This document shows, piece by piece, positions 39,167 to 61,132 of a stretch of 64,000 bases of DNA. The stretch covers positions 1 through 64,000 of the forward strand of contig WSYJ01000185.1 in NCBI GenBank assembly GCA_020186115.1, written 5' to 3'. Source of the DNA: Histomonas meleagridis (Eukaryota > Parabasalia > Tritrichomonadida > Dientamoebidae). Made by a program: the position numbers and the translations under genes. A model generated the notes under the pieces. It was not told the DNA's origin and searched no databases. It worked only from the letters and a program-made list of their open reading frames with translations. Position 1 is the stretch's first letter; each line of letters starts with the position of its first letter.

Positions 39167-42100
39167 TTATGATATAGTCAATTGACCACCTTCACGAAAC
39201 AATGCAACTACATTCTTATGCCCTTTTTTAAGTGCTAGCATAAAAGCTGTTTTAAATAATTCTAATAATTTTCAAATGTTATTTGAAAATTTTGAATTGG
39301 TAAAATAAATTTTAAATAAAACTAATGAATATCTTTAGCATTAATATCAATTCTTTCTTGTTCAAGAAGTAATTTAACTATTTCTGTATTACCTTTTGAA
39401 GATGCATTCATAAGTGCTGTTCTAAATAATTTGAATAATTTCCAAATATTATTTTAAAATAAGAAATAACACAAATAAATTCTAAATAAAACAAATAAAT
39501 ATCTTTAGCATTAATATCAATTCCTTTTTGTTTAAGAAGTAATTTAACTATTTCTGTATGACCATGAAAAGATGATAATGTAAGTGCTGTTTGAAATATT
39601 TAAAATAATTTCCAAATATTATTTTGGAATATAAAATTATTAAATCAAATATTCAATAAAACTAATGAATATTTTTGGCATTAATATCAATTCCTTCTTG
39701 TTCAAGAAGTAATTCAACAATTTCTGTGTAACCTTTTGAAGATGCTAACATAAGCGTTGTATTAAATAATTTAAATAATTTCCAAATATTATTTTGAAAT
39801 TTTGAATTATTAAAACAAATTTTAAATAAAACTAATGAATATCTTTAACATTCATATCAATTCCTTTTTGTTCAAGAAGTAATTTAATGATTTCTGTGTG
39901 CCCTTTCTCAAATGCTAACATAAAAGCTGTTTTAAATGTTTTGAATAATTTCCAAATATTTTTACGAAATAGAAAATTATTAAAATAAAGATTAATTAAA
40001 AAAAATAAATCCCATGAACATTAACATCTATTCGTTTTTGTTTAAGAAGCAATTTAACTATTTCGGTATGACCTTTTGAAGATGCGTTTATAAGTACTGT
40101 CCAAAATAATTTAAATAATTTCCAAATGTTATTTGAAAATTTTGAATTGTTAAAATAAACATTAAATAAAACTAATGAACATCTTTTGCATTGGCATCAA
40201 TTCCTTCATGCTCAAGAAGTAATTTAACTATTTCCATATGAACTTTTGAAGATGCAAACATAAGTGCTGTATTAAATAATTCAAATAATTTCCAAATATT
40301 ATTTTATAATAGAAAATTATTAAAAGAAATTTTAAATAAAACTAACGAACATCTTTAGCGTTAACATCAATTCCTTGTTGTTCAAGAAGTAATTTAACGA
40401 TTTCTGTGGAACATTTTTCAGATGCATACATAAGTGATGTTTTAATAATTTTTAGTAATTTCCAAATATTATTTTGAATTTTTAAATTATTAATATAAAT
40501 TTTAAATAAAACTTATAAATATCTTTTGCATTAATATCAATTTCTTCTTGATCAAGAAGTAATTTAACTACTTCTATTTTATTATTTTGAACTGCACTAA
40601 TAAGTGCTGTATAAAATAATATAAATAATTTCCAAATATTATTTTGAAATATCAAATAATTAAAATAAATCCAAAATAAAACAAACAAATATCTTCAGCA
40701 TTAATATCAATTCCTTTTTGTTCAAGAAGTAATTTAACTATTTCTATATGACCCCTCCATGATGCTTCAATAAGTGCTGTATCAAATAATTTAAATAATT
40801 TCCAAATATTATTTTGAAACACAAAATTATCAAAACGAATATTAAATAAAACAAATAAATACTTTTAGCATTAATGTCAATTCCTTTTTGTTCAAGAAGT
40901 AATTTAACTATTTCTGTACTACCTTCTTCAGATGCATACATAAGTGCTGTATGAAGTAATTTGAATAATTTCCAAATATTATTTTGAAATATAAAATTAT
41001 TAAAATAAATTATAAATAAAACAAATAAACACCTTTAGCATTAATGTCAATTCCTTTTTGTTCAAGAAGTAACCTAACGATTTCTGTATGACCATATTTA
41101 GATGCATAAATAAGTGCTGTTCTAAATATTTTGAATAATTTCCAAATATTATTTTGAAATACTATATTATTAAAATAAATTTTAAATAAAACAAATAAAT
41201 ATCTTTAGCATTAATATCAATTCCTTTTTGTTCAAGAAGTAATTGAACTATTTCTATATGACCTTTCCATGATGCTTCAATAAGTGCTGTATCAAATAAT
41301 TTAAATAATTTCCAAATATTATTTTGAAACACAAAATTATCAAAACGAATATTAAATAAAACAAATAAATACTTTTAGCATTAATGTCAATTCCTTTTTG
41401 TTCAAGAAGTAATTTAACTATTTCTGTACTACCTTCTTCAGATGGATACATAAGTGCTGTATGAAGTAATTTAAATAATTTCCAAATATTATTTTGAAAT
41501 ATAAAATTATTAAAATAAATTATAAATAAAACAAATAAACACCTTTAGCATTAATGTCAATTCCTTTTTGTTCAAGAAGTAATTTAACTATTTCTGTATG
41601 ACCATATAAAGATGCCCAAACAAGTGCTGTTTTAAATAATTTAAATAATTTCCAAATATTATTTTGAAATATAAAATTATTAAAATAAATCCAAAATAAA
41701 ACAAATAAATATCTTTAGCATTAATATCAATTCCTTCTTGTTCAAGAAGTAATTTTACTATTTTTATATGACCAAATTGGGATGCTAAAATAAGTGCTGT
41801 TTCAAATATTTAAAATAATTTCCAAATATTATTATGAAATATTAATTTATTAATATAAATATTAAATAAAACAAATAAATATCTTTAGCATTAATGTCAA
41901 TTCCTTCTTGCGCAAGAAGTAACTTAACCATTTCAAAATATCTATTTGAAACTGCTATAATAAGTGGTGTTTTAAATAATTTAAATAATTTCCAAATATT
42001 ATTTTTAAATTGTAAATTATCTTTTTTAAGAAGTAATTTAACTATTTTTGTGAAGCCATTTGTAGATGCTAAAATAAGTGCTGTCCAAAACAATTCAAAT

Positions 42101-42424
42101 AACTCCCAACTATTATTTTGAAATTTTAAAATGTTGAAATAAATATTAAATAAAATTTACAAATACCATGAATATTAACATCAATTTCTTTTTGTTCAAT
42201 AAGCAATTTAGCTACTTTCGTGTTCCCGAATATACATGCATATATAAGTGTTGTATTAAATATTTTAATTAAACTCTAAACATTATGTTGAAATACCAAA
42301 TTATTAAAATAAATCCAAAATAAAACAAGAAAATATCTTTAGCATTAATATCAATTCCTTTTTGTTCAAGAAGTAATTTAACAATTTCAGTGTTCGCATT
42401 CTCAGATGCCCACATAAGTGCTGT
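39167..42424 (-). repeat. Array of 20 ankyrin units, 18 steps of exactly 170 nt and one of 114 nt
   Basis: Each unit has an 87-nt ankyrin segment (T-A-L...IVKLLLEQ-GIDINAK) followed by an 83-nt AT-rich spacer. Segments in transcription order: 42338-42424, 42168-42254, one truncated unit ending at 42084, then 41884-41970 and every 170 nt down to 39334-39420, and a terminal unit 39167-39250 that ends GGQLTIS and a stop. None of the segments I translated has a stop or an indel; substitutions fall mainly at the surface positions ankyrins normally vary. Since 170 is not a multiple of three, each spacer shifts the frame. The spacers begin near GATATTTATTTG and end AAATTATTT-NNN-ACAGC. The spacers lack the known trichomonad intron ends. 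The array may be exons with unrecognised introns, a cassette reservoir, or a degenerate satellite. Confidence 0.75.
40694..41460 (-). repeat. Near-identical three-unit (510-nt) duplication inside the ankyrin array
   Basis: Units at 40864-40950 and 40694-40780 are nearly identical to units at 41374-41460 and 41204-41290, including their spacers, at a distance of 510 nt (three periods). This marks a recent multi-unit expansion inside an otherwise diverged array. Confidence 0.7.
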
Positions 42425-42499
42425 TTTAATAATTTTTAGTAATTTCCAAATATTATTTTGAAATAAAATAATGTTAAAATAAATATCAAATAAAATAAA

Positions 42500-43699
42500 T
42501 CAATCAATATCTTTAGCATTAACATCAAAACCATGTTGTATCATATATTTAACAAGTTCACTGTTTCCTGATTTAAACATAAATCTTGAAATATATATTG
42601 GAATTTGATTATCTTGGAGAAAATCTTTAATAAGATATAAATTTCCTATTTTAGCAGTTTCATTGATTATGAAATCTTTGATTTCCATTCCTTTTTCAAG
42701 TAAAAATGAAAGAATTTCATAATTTCCACTTGTTATACATATGAAACCCAAATTATTAATGATCTGTTTTTTGTTCTCATTTAATGAAAGATGTGTATCT
42801 CTTTGAATATCTTCTTCCAAATTTTCGATTTTTTTTTCATAAACATAATGAAAGATATCATTTCGATGGAATTCAACTGCTGTTTTATGTACATCTTCAA
42901 ATGATGAATTATTTTGTTCACATAAATGAATAATTTCAAGATTTCCACCTGCAACTGCATATTTACCTGTATTGATTACATTTGCACCATTCATAAGTAA
43001 ATATTTAAAACATTTAACCGAAGAAAAAAATGCTGCATAATCAATTAATGAAACATTTTCTTTATTAATAAACGAGCATCTTTCATAAAGTGATGGCTCA
43101 ATTGTTTGATTAAAATCAAAATTACTTTGTGATGATATTTCTTGAAGTTTTTCTATTTCATCATTTCGAATTATTTTCGTAATTTCATTTGGATTAACTC
43201 CTTCTTTAATATATTTCTTAAATTGTAGTTCATCAGAATGTTGAATTAGTTTATTGTTTCCAACATTTGTTTTATAAAATTTAAAATAATCTGATTTAAT
43301 GTTGTTTGTGATTTTTTTATCAATTAAATTTCGTTCAATCATTTCCTCAATTAAAAAATATGATTCTTGTGAATTAATGTTTATTATATAATTACGAAAA
43401 ACTTTAATAATTTTTGCGATATTTTGATTTATTCCTTCTTCTTTTATTTGGATTTTTTCTAAATAATTTAAGTATGAAATGTTAATTTTTATATGAGAAG
43501 AAAATGCAGAATAAATTAAATTACTAATAATTAAATTAAATGTATATGGAAAATGTATATCAAATAATTCCATTGTTTGTTCAATTGCAGTTTCAAGATT
43601 GTCTTGCGTTAAAGTAAAAATGATTTGTTCAAGTTTAGTTAACAATCCCATAGAATTATATTTATAATTATTGTCTTTATTTATAGTACACTGATTCAT
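42500..43699 (-). CDS. DUF3447/ankyrin-type protein leading into the ankyrin array
   Basis: A protein of 399 residues: an N-terminal helical region with MIERNLIDKK, then ankyrin-like repeats with KYLLMNGANVI, YEILSFLLEKGM and LVKYMIQHGFDVNAKD. The N-terminal type (DUF3447-like) is best known from Trichomonas vaginalis ankyrin proteins. The frame stops just after NAKDID, exactly where every array unit meets its spacer. The first spacer here is 87 nt instead of 83 because of a 4-nt insertion. If the spacer is removed, the protein continues into 20 more repeats (about 1,000 residues in all); if not, this is the whole product. Ankyrin proteins act as binding scaffolds; the partner is unknown. Confidence 0.75.
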   Translation of the reverse strand: MNQCTINKDNNYKYNSMGLLTKLEQIIFTLTQDNLETAIEQTMELFDIHFPYTFNLIISNLIYSAFSSHIKINISYLNYLEKIQIKEEGINQNIAKIIKVFRNYIININSQESYFLIEEMIERNLIDKKITNNIKSDYFKFYKTNVGNNKLIQHSDELQFKKYIKEGVNPNEITKIIRNDEIEKLQEISSQSNFDFNQTIEPSLYERCSFINKENVSLIDYAAFFSSVKCFKYLLMNGANVINTGKYAVAGGNLEIIHLCEQNNSSFEDVHKTAVEFHRNDIFHYVYEKKIENLEEDIQRDTHLSLNENKKQIINNLGFICITSGNYEILSFLLEKGMEIKDFIINETAKIGNLYLIKDFLQDNQIPIYISRFMFKSGNSELVKYMIQHGFDVNAKDID

Positions 43700-44231: not shown

Positions 44232-46682
44232 TTAATCAAAATCACTAATTTTTCCACCGACCTTTATAATCAAGTCTTGGTATTCTTTCTTGGACAGCAT
44301 CGTTTTATCCAATTGTGCCAATATTGAATGCCAATTTTGCATCCTATCGGACAAGTCGGGGTGCTGCAAAACCTCCAAAACTTTATCGATTTCGAACCCG
44401 ACAATTCTATCTGCATGAATTACGATAATTAACAATGAGAACGACAACAAGAATCTTGTTCCGAAGAACAAAAATCGTTCGAATATTCTAAGTTGGAATT
44501 CAGGCTGCCAATTAAATGTTTGGAATGCAGTCAAAAGCCAATTTGTGGTAAACATTGATAAATCGACATAACATTTATCAAGTGTTTGTAATACTTTTGG
44601 ACATTTCTTTGTCATTAATACCTTTAACATTTCATTTGACCTTAAAAGTCTTGGAAATTTCTTCAGGAAATAACCTCTTTGATTTATCTTCTTCCCTTTC
44701 ATCGTAGCTACAAAACAATAAAAAGCGGATTCTTCATCCATATAAGCTAAAAACATTCCCGCAATAAAACTCATGCCTTGCGTATACCCTAACTCTGGAT
44801 CTACTTGACAATATGCATATAATATATGACGTAATGACTCAATGAAATTGGGCTGTGAGAAAAATCCAATTTGTGGAAATGTCCGATTAAGATCTTTGTC
44901 AATTGTTACATATGCTTCATGTCGTGGATTATTTTCGATAAGTTGTAGCATTGGAACTTGGATGATCTTCTTATATGAGTCCGCATCTGTGATTAAACGC
45001 CACGCTTTAGAACGTATTGCATCGGGTATACCCTTCTTAACTCTTTGTGAAACTTTTGATGGCTTCTTGGTTATCCATCGGAACCAATCTTCAGTCATTT
45101 GATTCCACTTTAAGGACCGCTCGATTTCTTTCTGTGATTCAATTTGCGTAAGCTTCTTTTCTTGTTTCGATATGTTACGTTCCTGTATAAACCACCCATA
45201 ACGATCAAATTTCTCAGTGGCTGTTGTTGATGTGCTAACTTCTTCAGTATCATAGTTATGTGTAGTCGTCTTATTAGATCCTGAAGATGAAGAAGAAGAT
45301 GATGACGATGAGCCTTCTTCGCCGGATGTGGATTCCTTTGGTTGCTTTTTCTGGGGCTTTGCAGGCTCTTTGCCTTTTGGCTTCGGTTGTTCTTTAGGTG
45401 CTTCTTTCTCTTTAGGCTTCGGCTTTTCTTTTCCTTTTGGTTTTTCTTTAGCTTTGGCTGGCTCCTTTCCTTTTGGCTTTGGCTGCTCCTTAGGTTTGGC
45501 GGGCTCTTTCTCTTTCTTTGGCGCTTCTTTTTCTTTAGGTTTAACTGGTTCCTTTTCCTTAGGCTTTGGATGTTCTTTTCCTTTTGGCTTGGCGGGCTCT
45601 TTCTCCTTCGGTTTGGGTGCTTCCTTTTCCTTAGGTTTGGGATGCTCTTTTTCTTTTGGCTTTGGCGCTTCCTTCTCCTTTGGTTTTACTGGTTCCTTTT
45701 CTTTGGGTTTAGGAGCTTCTTTCTCTTTAGGCTTTGGATGCTCTTTTTCCTTTGGTTTAGGTGATTCTTTCTCCTTTGGCTTAGCAGGTTCCTTTTCTTT
45801 ATGCTTTGGAGCTTCCTTCTCCTTAGGTTTAGCAGGCTCTTTTTCTTTAGGTTTAGGCGATTCTTTCTCTTTTGGTTTGACTGGTTCCTTTTCCTTATGC
45901 TTTGGTTGTTCTTTTTCCTTTGGTTTAGCAGGTTCTTTACCCTTTGGTTTAGGATGCTCTTTTTCTTTAGGCTTTGGTGCTTCCTTCTCCTTTGGCTTAG
46001 TAGGCTCCTTTTCTTTAGGCTTTGGGTGTTCTTTTTCTTTAGGCTTTGGATGTTCCTTTTCCTTTGGTTTAGGCGATTCTTTCTCCTTTGGTTTAACTGG
46101 TTCCTTTTCCTTAGGCTTTGGTGCTTCTTTCTCTTTTGGCTTTGGGTGTTCCTTTTCTTTTGGTTTTGCAGGTTTACTGGATTCAGAAGACTCATCTGAA
46201 GAAGTGAAAGTTAAATCAGTTGTCACGGTTGAAGATTCTGTCCACTCATCATCTGAAGAAGAGCTTCCTTTTTTCTTTGGTTTTGTTAGTTCTTTTCCTT
46301 TTGGTTTTGGAGGTTCCTTTCCTTTCGATTTTGGCGGTTCTTTTTCCTTTGGTTTGGTATCCTTCTTTGGTTTCTGTTGCTGAGGTTCCAATGAATCACT
46401 GTCTGATGAAAACTTTTTGTTTGGTTTTTTGGCATTCTTGTTATCATTTTTGGTCGAATTTAACTTATTATCGCCTCCAGTTTTTCCCTTAGCCGGCTCT
46501 TTCTTTGCAGGCGGATTATTACTTGATTTAGTTGGGGTTTTCTGTTTTTCATCTTTTGATTTATCTTTCTTCAAACTGGAGCTGCTGCTGGAATCCTCAG
46601 AGCTTTGGTAAGATGATGTTGTGGTTGTGTCTTCGCTATCGCTTGATGATAATAAATCAATGCTATACGAAGTTTCACTCAT
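44232..46682 (-). CDS. TBC-domain Rab GTPase-activating protein with long KPKEKE repeat region
   Basis: A protein of 816 residues. Residues 1 to about 170 are Ser/Lys-rich. About 172-490 is a low-complexity block of 8-residue repeats of the type PKPKEKE-x. From about 545 comes a TBC domain with GIPDAIRSKAWRLI, the arginine-finger motif IDKDLNRTFP, and the glutamine-finger motif GYTQGMSF, so both catalytic residues are present. TBC proteins stimulate GTP hydrolysis by Rab proteins in membrane traffic. The highly charged repeat region may be a flexible tether or microtubule/anionic surface binder; that is inference. The DNA of the repeat (45330-46170) opens long antisense frames that are not genes. 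Confidence 0.88.
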   Translation of the reverse strand: MSETSYSIDLLSSSDSEDTTTTSSYQSSEDSSSSSSLKKDKSKDEKQKTPTKSSNNPPAKKEPAKGKTGGDNKLNSTKNDNKNAKKPNKKFSSDSDSLEPQQQKPKKDTKPKEKEPPKSKGKEPPKPKGKELTKPKKKGSSSSDDEWTESSTVTTDLTFTSSDESSESSKPAKPKEKEHPKPKEKEAPKPKEKEPVKPKEKESPKPKEKEHPKPKEKEHPKPKEKEPTKPKEKEAPKPKEKEHPKPKGKEPAKPKEKEQPKHKEKEPVKPKEKESPKPKEKEPAKPKEKEAPKHKEKEPAKPKEKESPKPKEKEHPKPKEKEAPKPKEKEPVKPKEKEAPKPKEKEHPKPKEKEAPKPKEKEPAKPKGKEHPKPKEKEPVKPKEKEAPKKEKEPAKPKEQPKPKGKEPAKAKEKPKGKEKPKPKEKEAPKEQPKPKGKEPAKPQKKQPKESTSGEEGSSSSSSSSSSGSNKTTTHNYDTEEVSTSTTATEKFDRYGWFIQERNISKQEKKLTQIESQKEIERSLKWNQMTEDWFRWITKKPSKVSQRVKKGIPDAIRSKAWRLITDADSYKKIIQVPMLQLIENNPRHEAYVTIDKDLNRTFPQIGFFSQPNFIESLRHILYAYCQVDPELGYTQGMSFIAGMFLAYMDEESAFYCFVATMKGKKINQRGYFLKKFPRLLRSNEMLKVLMTKKCPKVLQTLDKCYVDLSMFTTNWLLTAFQTFNWQPEFQLRIFERFLFFGTRFLLSFSLLIIVIHADRIVGFEIDKVLEVLQHPDLSDRMQNWHSILAQLDKTMLSKKEYQDLIIKVGGKISDFD
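45330..46170 (-). repeat. Imperfect 24-nt tandem repeat coding for Lys/Pro/Glu octapeptides
   Basis: About thirty copies encode PKPKEKE followed by one variable residue (H, A, P, S or Q). Synonymous differences between copies are frequent, so the protein pattern is kept despite DNA divergence. Confidence 0.8.
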
Positions 46683-58895: not shown

Positions 58896-59007
58896 GACTT
58901 GAATAATTTTAATTACCCTTTTAAAGGGGAATTTCTAACCAAATATAAAAGTGACACATGAGAAATCATTCATTAATGTGAACAAAACCATTCATCATCA
59001 TTTAAAG

Positions 59008-59405
59008 GTGCATATGAAGTGGCAATCCAATTCCATAAAAATGAAATTATTAAATATATTTATGATAATAAATTAGACAAATTGTATGAAAATAAATCAA
59101 ATGGAAATTATGAAATTCTTTTATTTTTACTTGAAGATAATATGAAAGTTAATGAATTTGTTATTAATGAAGCAGCAATAAATGATAACATATTCCTTGT
59201 TAAACATTTTTATAGATATAATAAAAATGGATCTGATATTTTTATTTCTGCAGTAAAATCAAAAAATATAGAATTTATTAAATATATGCTAAAACGAAAA
59301 GGAATTGATATTGATGCTAAGGATATTTATTTGTTTTATTTAACATTTATTATAATAATTTTGGAAATTTTGAAATCGATTTTTTCAAAATATATATTTT
59401 TTTAA
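59008..59405 (+). pseudogene. C-terminal fragment of a second DUF3447/ankyrin gene
   Basis: Similar to residues from about 275 on of the 42500-43699 protein: IQFHKNEIIKYIYDNKLD, NYEILLFLLEDNMKV, then ANDNIFLVKHF-like and YMLKRKGIDIDAKD, with an internal deletion. It ends in DIYLFYL, the same spacer-derived extension seen after each ankyrin unit of the array, and no further ankyrin unit follows. There is no ATG at the start of the similarity. Most likely a remnant. Confidence 0.65.
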
Positions 59406-60742
59406 GTCCAATCTTAATTATTTTTGATGTATATGATTTTTTATTAATGGTAGTTCTTGAAATCTTAAGAATGATTTTTTTCATTCAATTTTCTTCATTT
59501 TATTATCACTTTATTTTAAATCGTATCTAAAAAGTTCTGTGAAGTGGCAGTGGTCTATTTTTTTACTATTTTATTAAAATAAATTAAATATTATATTTTT
59601 TAATTTTAATGATTTACCAAGATATTTATATTTCGATGGTCAAAAAGTGCTCAAAAATGGTTTTTTATATATTTTTTGTTATGTGATCATTTTCAATCAA
59701 AATTTTTGTTGTACGTTTTAATTAAAATAATTTTATTTGGTTTTACAAATATATTGGTTGCAGAAAATGAGACTTTAATTTTTCGATTTAATTATTTGAT
59801 AAAAATTTAAGAGATGAATAAAACCTAACGCTTAAATGTGTCAAATAATCTATAATCGATTAGTAATATTTTCATATATATGGTTTTGCAAAATATGCAT
59901 TTTTGGTTGGAAAATATGAGATTTTTATTTTTTTGATGAAAAAAAAGAACATTCTGAACACAATATTGTGTAATAGTTTTTTAATGGGACCCATTCAATT
60001 ATAAAGTTTAATATTCATTTAAATATGCCAGCCTGACTATATATTTGGACTGCTGTATTTTTTTTTTTATGCTTCATTCTTTCAGTAATGTTTCCCAAAA
60101 AAATAAATTGAATAATCTACAATTCATTTGAATCAAAGAATTCGTAATTTGAATATGCAATTTGGGTTTCTTGATTGATAGAAAATGATGTTGTTCACCT
60201 CACAAATTGGAGTTTTTGATCGAAAAATATAAGAATGACTCTATAAGAATGATATAAAATTAAAAAAATCACCATTGACAGATGCCTCAGAATGTATGTC
60301 AGGTATTCTCGAATTCAAATATGATAAATCGATCATTTTAATGTATAAGGTAATGGAGATAAAGATATCAACTCGAAACCTATAAATTTATAAATACTAT
60401 CCAATAGATATCTGATTCAATAATGGCTCAGAAAATTAAGCAAGAAAATACATCATATATTATTTTTTAATTTATTTATGATTGATATTTATCAAAATAA
60501 AATATGTAAAATATGATATAATTATGATGGATTTAACAAATAATCTTGTAAAATATTATAAATTACTTCAAATTTTCTACATTCATGATGAAAAAACAAA
60601 AATATATTTAAATTAAATAAAAAAACATTCGATTATGATATAAATACAAAAACAAAAAATCACAAGCTATTCATAGAAATATTAAATACAAAGGAAAAAC
60701 GAGAAAAAAATATAACAGAGAACAATAACCTGATTAAAAATG
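59406..60742. other. About 1.3 kb AT-rich region without gene
   Basis: No supported ORF. Loosely similar phrases recur (TTGGTTG..GAAAATGAGA and variants near 59757, 59910 and 60180), which could be a degraded repeat. It separates two DUF3447/ankyrin fragments of opposite orientation. Confidence 0.4.
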
Positions 60743-61132
60743 ATCTTTTATCTATTAGGTTTCGTTCAATCATTTTTTCTATTAGAAAAGATGCCTCTGA
60801 TGTTGCCATTTTTGATATGTAATCATAAAAAATTTCAATAGTTTTTGGATAATCTTTGTTCATTTCTTCTGTTTTTATTTGAATTGCTTCTAAATATTTT
60901 ATGTAAATATCATCGACATATTTTAGTGATAAAAATGCATAATAAACTAAATTGGAAAAAATTTTGAGAAATGAATTTGGAAAGATTAAATCAAATTTAA
61001 TTCCATAGTTCGCTCGACAGATATATCAAGATTTTTTTTAGTTAAATTAAAAACTACTTGTTCCAGTGATAAAAGAAATTTCAAATAATTGATAACTTTG
61101 TAACACTCTTCTGTTTTCTTTTCGTTCATCAT
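60743..61132 (-). pseudogene. N-terminal fragment of a DUF3447/ankyrin gene
   Basis: Starts MMNEKKTEECYKVINYLKF and continues LEQVVFNLTKKNLDISVE, then after a one-base frame change near 61005 reads FPNSFLKIFSNLVYYAFLS, YVDDIYIKYLEAIQIK and SFLIEKMIERNLIDKR. It matches the first 130 residues of the 42500-43699 protein. Similarity ends abruptly at IDKR. The rest of the gene is not adjacent; a matching C-terminal piece lies on the other strand at 59008. Confidence 0.7.

Follow-up and report, generated by a model that had tools for sequence, protein, structure and literature searches.

Single ankyrin codons separated by 17-nucleotide elements in a gene family of Histomonas meleagridis

The nonconventional introns of euglenids and diplonemids, as described in two studies (PMC4770533, PMC12621601), lack GT-AG borders, carry a purine at +1 and a pyrimidine at their last position, and are mostly followed by an exon that begins with a purine; the spliceosome is apparently not involved. 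They range from tens of bases to more than 1 kb (diplonemid medians of 37 and 91 nucleotides, nt) and possess RNA structure that joins their ends. The type B spliceosomal introns of Trichomonas are very short (23–25 nt), T-rich and parabasalid, have GT/AG borders and a fused CTAA branch site, and include the shortest T. vaginalis intron reported, of 23 nt (PMC12316389). Frame-breaking coding inserts that leave a functional protein are represented by the byps of Magnusiomyces mitochondria and by the gap in T4 gene 60 (PMC5009743). Here we describe an ankyrin array with its first exon on the minus strand (39167..43699) of a 64,000-nt stretch of the genome of Histomonas meleagridis, virulent strain (contig WSYJ01000185.1, positions 1 to 64,000; hereafter the window), in which single codons are separated by elements of 17 nt. 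These elements resemble the euglenid and diplonemid introns in their borders and in the apparent absence of the spliceosome, and the type B introns in their shortness, T-richness and host. They differ from the former, which they match in border rule and not in structure or length, in being unstructured, near-constant at 17 nt, placed between consecutive codons and housed in a parabasalid, and from the latter in their smaller size and in having neither GT/AG borders nor the fused branch site. Nothing comparable was found in the literature searched, including that on Histomonas ankyrin, within a single paper collection.

The array comprises 20 ankyrin units, whose T codons run from 42424 down to 39250. 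Of the 19 steps between them, 18 are exactly 170 nt, as the initial annotation had observed; the remaining one is 114 nt, and the 170-nt array was also recovered by Tandem Repeats Finder (TRF). The annotation gave the length of the spacer between ankyrin parts correctly as 83 nt and proposed its removal as one intron of about 71–77 nt, or else its bypass or excision by other means; the intron reading proved wrong, because the 83 nt conceal five codons and four separate AT-rich elements of 17 nt, each placed exactly between two consecutive codons of the ankyrin beta-turn. A typical spacer has the layout K-GAT[17]AAT[17]TAT[17]GGA[17]AAA-ACA-GCA and yields NAKD-N-Y-G-K-TAL, so that joining codons 20 nt apart restores the ankyrin consensus D-x-x-G-x-T. 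The five isolated codons are referred to below as slots D1, x2, x3, G4 and x5. The elements follow the consensus R-TTT-ATTT-N5-ATTY and are 17 nt long, sometimes 18, with 1 to 5 per junction where junctions were measured and as many as 22 in succession at a single locus. In the non-repetitive gene L004, contiguous repeats alternate with interrupted ones, and two of the interruptions are exactly 17 nt, e.g., NSKDENG[17]NTPLH. The remaining parts of the earlier interpretation, namely protein-level selection on the ankyrin parts, spacers devoid of trichomonad intron signals, and resumption of coding at the variable codon preceding T-A-L, were upheld. The stops that it had reported in the spacers also recur across the window and loci L001 to L028, where 125 of 173 spacers meet a stop when read on in frame. 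The 87-nt ankyrin parts, described as open, contain no stop in 172 of the 173 units and a stop in one, a count that is not unbiased because the units were found with an ankyrin pattern tolerating 3 mismatches.

The position of the slots was examined in several ways. At 278 interrupted junctions (from 353 ankyrin starts, with L004 and L008 counted twice via L029 and L030), a GGN codon precedes the x codon by 17 nt in 49%, compared with at most 9% at every other offset from 1 to 40 and 7% at offset 0. At contiguous junctions GGN occupies offset 0 in 60% of the 65 retained after de-duplication, and the de-duplicated interrupted set (98 junctions, including first units of uninterrupted genes) has 29% at offset 17 and 19% at offset 0. 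A scan of the 20-nt phase revealed no stop codons at phase 0 in any of four step groups (0/325, 0/136, 0/128 and 0/50) versus 33–53% at phase -1; some other phases (e.g., -3 and +3) are also free or nearly free of stops, and none of these shows Gly codons. In seven step classes, 145 junctions provide 663 slot codons, none of which is a stop, where column shuffling produced a mean of 36.2 and a minimum of 24 in 2000 shuffles; the 626 slot codons from 138 distinct slot series of ten step classes are likewise free of stops. Glycine in the Gly slot is spelled by all four of its codons (GGA 90, GGT 5, GGG 2, GGC 1). In a profile test of lengths 10–24 and offsets 0–3, with the contiguous junctions of the same genome as reference, 62 distinct 170-step spacers gave the 17-nt model 8.86 bits per junction and the next best model 1.38, which puts this length ahead by 7.5 bits per junction; it was also the best in each of the four slots alone.

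The same arrangement extends beyond the arrays. A genome-wide pattern consisting of element end, codon, element, codon and element start has 2698 matches (1345 + 1353) against 187 (101 + 86) for its reversed form, and the 100 listed matches contain no stop among 200 slot codons, with 18.3 expected. Among 25 hand-picked non-array junctions, 22, in 10 of 11 genes, parse (score at least 4.8) into 51 elements, 1 to 4 each; 15 of these junctions have only 17-nt elements and 7 include one of 18 nt, with the reservation that the parser penalises 16 and 18 and so favours 17 by design, and that L008 and L039 are close relatives. Examples are NLRNK-DGE-TPI and NKQ-DWDNR-TPL. Four of the non-array junctions have no known upstream frame, and in two of them the runner-up is close. 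The counts of these tests are not independent, because array units are related by duplication, a problem partly offset by counting distinct series, by testing separate genes and by the genome-wide list.

Selection was compared in 181 pairs of four-element units with 85–97% identity. Framework residues hardly differ at the amino acid level (T1 0%, L3 1%, V15 0%, L18 0%, I24 0%, D25 0%, N27 0%), whereas the contact positions 5, 8 and 9 of the open segment differ in 75, 89 and 72% of the pairs. This codon-by-codon contrast is what makes the ankyrin parts look selected as protein. The slots differ in 84% (x2), 85% (x3), 82% (x5), 20% (G4) and 55% (D1) of the pairs, and on this pattern they behave like parts of one selected protein together with the open segments. 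The hypervariable turn and helix positions are those that contact the target in designed ankyrin binders. Per-site change in close pairs is 0.383 in the triplets versus 0.067 in the 17-mers, and within elements the ends change less than the middles (0.056 vs 0.076). General purifying selection as read from pooled pN/pS (nonsynonymous over synonymous change) is unsupported, the ratios of the +1 frame being lower, and an expected stronger conservation of elements than of silent sites did not hold up when fourfold sites served as the comparison. As far as sequence comparison reaches, these results establish that the 17-nt elements sit exactly between successive beta-turn codons in these ankyrin genes and that the isolated codons evolve as part of the encoded ankyrin protein.

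In the window, the array gene begins with a long exon (42509..43699, minus strand) that runs from an ATG start through a DUF3447 and ankyrin open reading frame (ORF) to the D codon (GAT) preceding the first element; the mechanically called ORF, 42500–43699 (399 codons), terminates within the first element of the first spacer. This ORF matches the Pfam families Ank_4, Ank, Ank_3, Ank_2 and DUF3447, all over their cut-offs, and by consensus and Pfam match the gene, slots included, encodes an ankyrin repeat protein of the DUF3447-ankyrin family. The first junction (42425..42511) is irregular, with a first element of 21 nt due to a 4-nt duplication (of ATTG), followed by GAT[17]TTT[17]GGA[17]AAA. 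Ankyrin unit 1, the leading segment of the 20 (TALMWASENANTEIVKLLLEQKGIDINAK), occupies 42338..42424. Junction 2 then consists of slot D1 (GAT, 42335..42337), element 1 (attttcttgttttattt, 42318..42334), slot x2 (TGG, 42315–42317), element 2 (42298..42314), slot x3 (GGT, 42295–42297), element 3 (42278..42294), slot G4 (here AGA, 42275–42277), element 4 (42258..42274) and slot x5 (AAT, 42255–42257), with the next T codon at 42254, all on the minus strand. It spells D-W-G-R-N ahead of unit 2, and the following junction spells G-N-K-G-W ahead of unit 3. Unit 3 and its defective junction to unit 4 (41971..42084, minus) account for the 114-nt step, 56 nt having been lost and one clean GGA[17]AAA left. 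Units 4–19 (39251..41970, minus) have T codons at 41970, 41800 and so on to 39420, every 170 nt, with a four-element junction after each; their slots spell DNNGE at the junction ahead of unit 5 and, at the other end, DKKEK ahead of unit 20, and the G slot is GGA everywhere except GAA before unit 20. The last unit, 20, ends in frame (TAFMLALKKGHKNVVALFREGGQLTIS and a stop; 39167..39250, minus, stop at 39167). Irregular junctions thus number 2 of 20, and the copy in the window may not be fully functional because of the 21-nt element and the junction-breaking deletion. The window may also contain remains of further family members, because the array gene's first exon has similar ORFs at ~58976–59400 (plus strand, 39% identity) and ~60740–61025 (minus strand, 50% identity). 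Tandem repeats of 48, 72 and 96 nt at 45405–46174 (minus) lie within an 816-codon ORF and look like a repetitive coding region.

The genome searches covered 43,276,120 bases in 121 contigs (the published assembly has 43,414,808 in 187). A search for the Ank_2 family scored 150 of 9115 candidates and yielded 220 matches from these, and 20 stretches chosen for long or stop-holding matches were analysed along with 20 around other ankyrin matches (two overlap L004 and L008). Other arrays have steps of 130, 147, 150, 153, 167, 170, 173, 187 and 190 nt; among 173 measured steps of 115–260 nt, 65 are 170 nt and 34 are 153 nt, and many differ by 17 or 20. At L055 (C1:1206700-1209200, minus), runs of 22, 14, 12, 10, 7 and 6 codon + element units adjoin ankyrin units and spell hydrophilic stretches such as YESKYKWRYYYEERYRKYQYDKG, with no stops in 77 codons where 9.5 are expected. 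This count refers to the six longest or best-scoring in-phase runs of the 21 obtained; most of the remaining 15 cover these same stretches in a one-off or shifted reading, two lie outside, and several of the 15 spell stops. A protein search with the in-frame three-element stretch of L027 returned 563 proteins. The top 31 of the 120 listed are ENA entries from short contigs, 53–70% identical, and all six of those inspected (P0001, P0002, P0005, P0009, P0020 and P0031) carry translated element text, e.g., VYFNNLLFQNNIWNFFKLF, beside ankyrin units; 17-nt elements are probably present in another organism or in a distant strain as well. In the relative from Tritrichomonas foetus (P0149) the ankyrin repeats are contiguous. 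Three family members in the protein search are attributed to H. meleagridis. The arrays are at least partly unannotated, because the annotated protein P0130, one of three inspected, stops at the first junction (it ends DINAQNI).

Ordinary introns of the organism, of the form GTATGTTTTTT...[AT]CTAACACA[CT]AG, were found in three kinase genes (L052, L053 and L054, on C103, C27 and C55), where they interrupt the kinase domain near the same place, and three more were found by pattern versus none in the control. Most of 133 kinase-domain matches stay in one frame throughout; three end early (positions 192–202), all with ordinary introns, and one additional match is partial (51–263). Stops lie inside 7 of the 133, including one of the three early-ending matches and one that covers an ordinary-intron pattern match, the five others being unexamined. 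Kinases, three of them studied closely, are the sole other family checked, which does not prove the elements absent elsewhere. The genome has a U2 small nuclear RNA (snRNA) over the cut-off, with GTAGTA, and a U6 just under it (43.7 of 44 bits, E value 2e-8), both with the usual pairing motifs; the model for U1 snRNA found no match genome-wide, perhaps because U1 is too diverged for it. According to the genome paper, introns predicted by AUGUSTUS trained on a transcriptome are few and never exceed one per gene, and the paper's main text contains neither the word ankyrin nor words in splic- (PMC8529796). In 203 distinct elements from 170- and 153-step units, position +1 is a purine in 0.89 and the last position a pyrimidine in 0.95, as at nonconventional intron borders. 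Only 14% start with GT, 0% end in AG and 0% contain CTAAC, and at 17 nt, sometimes 18, they fall below the 23 nt or more of parabasalid spliceosomal introns. A stable end-joining RNA structure was not detected, the mean minimum free energy of 167 elements being -0.03 versus -0.02 for shuffles. Given ordinary introns of the organism's own and a U2 and U6 with the usual motifs, the elements do not look like substrates of its spliceosome. Other candidate arrangements were set aside: for a single intron of 68–83 nt, the pattern GTATGT-N5-35-ACTAACACACAG has no match in the genome and CTAACACACAG has 11 versus 4 in the reversed control; U12 or AT-AC introns do not fit elements that mostly begin with A and end with TTT or TTC rather than AC, and no further search for them was made; and a hairpin of the whole junction gave a mean of -13.2 versus -12.4 for shuffles (40 of 65 junctions folded).

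Such an anatomy requires, or at one time required, the discarding of 17-nt pieces between single codons, and because the correct protein is spelled by these isolated codons, the cell probably possesses a novel means of removing the inserts or passing over them. We consider it likely that a parabasalid nucleus joins codons 20 nt apart by a novel process, at the level of RNA or of the ribosome, which discards as many as 22 successive 17-nt elements and serves a large ankyrin family with hypervariable binding residues, much as in designed ankyrin binders. As to its form, we give slightly better than even chances to each element being a 17-nt non-spliceosomal intron that is excised from RNA, leaving 3-nt exons. 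A non-spliceosomal activity would remove the elements one after another, step by step, at borders of the type Y|R...Y|R, cutting and joining the RNA after measuring ~17 nt from an RTTT start to an ATTY end. The elements may have spread upstream from the G|x boundary and may also have multiplied by duplication of 20-nt (codon + element) units. Ciliate internal eliminated sequences are likewise short, AT-rich, of narrow length range and located in coding DNA; unlike the elements, they are TA-bounded DNA removed from the somatic nucleus. We know of no ciliate-type DNA elimination in parabasalids, and no test for it was made here.

Several observations weigh against excision. We know of no machinery that leaves tandem 3-nt exons, and the elements are without RNA structure of their own, unlike known non-spliceosomal introns. 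The first exons of at least four loci (L011, L012, L015 and L027) are broken by stops or frameshifts, and on that account some array copies are judged to be pseudogenes; the array of the window itself has the 21-nt element and the 56-nt deletion. Three of the 25 chosen non-array junctions parse poorly, and several that do parse spell no Gly (e.g., VVE, VVT, VVVR). The rate of change in the elements is about that of fourfold sites (0.067 vs 0.070), so that constraint is visible at their ends alone. The initial annotation had proposed a dN/dS (nonsynonymous over synonymous rate) comparison as a check, and this gives no support alone: for the ankyrin part, pooled pN/pS amounts to 0.77 in the window and spans 0.70 to 1.25 in other sets, near 1 because the framework is nearly fixed while contact positions are hypervariable, and the frame shifted by +1 gives lower ratios (0.47–0.68), so that the ankyrin frame is not singled out.

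The main rival to RNA excision is ribosomal skipping, which we regard as unlikely. Here the elements would stay in the mRNA, and the ribosome would decode a codon, pass over 17 nt and decode the next, with bypassing repeated at consecutive codons. The U-rich, unstructured nature of the elements and their lack of splice signals would suit this. However, take-off and landing codons do not match, since the slots are commonly GGA, AAT, GAT and GAA and the elements mostly close with TTT, a triplet that makes up only 10 of the 663 slot codons; some byps also lack a perfect match (PMC5009743). Up to 22 successive skips would be required, each with its own trigger, and the triplets that open elements, ATT and GTT among them, also serve as ordinary codons within ankyrin units.

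Somewhat less probable still is that the elements are relics, removed formerly, in genes that have since become pseudogenes or a silent reserve from which ankyrin units are donated in recombination. The stops or frameshifts in some first exons, the two irregular junctions in the window and the termination of the published protein P0130 at its first junction are in keeping with this. Against it stand the complete absence of stops from the 663 array and 200 genome-wide slot codons, the diversification of contact residues on a nearly fixed framework between close copies, and 12 other loci in which a single open frame covers at least 360 alignment columns of the first exon; moreover, a removal process in the past would be needed even so.

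Ordinary spliceosomal introns of ~68 nt with degenerate signals, a reading close to that of the initial annotation, are very improbable. The presence of a spliceosome (U2, U6) would allow them, and an intron near the beta-turn fits exon-wise ankyrin duplication. T. vaginalis ankyrin genes do have ordinary introns (PMC12316389). However, the organism's own introns read differently from the elements, few of which start with GT and none of which end in AG or contain CTAAC, and a single intron spanning each junction would take out the D-x-x-G codons, which the tests show to be coding, so that this alternative is contradicted by the slot-codon results. Weakest of all is a non-coding 20-nt minisatellite in or beside ankyrin gene fragments, its variable triplet a mutational hotspot, which the 20-nt periodicity with runs of up to 22 and the far greater variability of triplets than of 17-mers would suit, but which is contradicted by the stop and profile tests, with no stops in 663, 200 and 77 triplets, Gly favoured at one slot with all four of its codons in use, and slots that match the ankyrin profile of contiguous genes.

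If the elements are removed or skipped, these genes would be the most finely interrupted coding sequences known to us, with one-codon exons, 17-nt inserts and no spliceosomal signals. The reading makes a sharp prediction, namely the exact joined sequence for every junction. If it is true, a eukaryote would possess a new activity for processing RNA or for decoding, ideas on how non-spliceosomal introns arise could be tested in a cultivable parasite of poultry, and a large family of diversified ankyrin proteins, unannotated at least in part, would be revealed in H. meleagridis.
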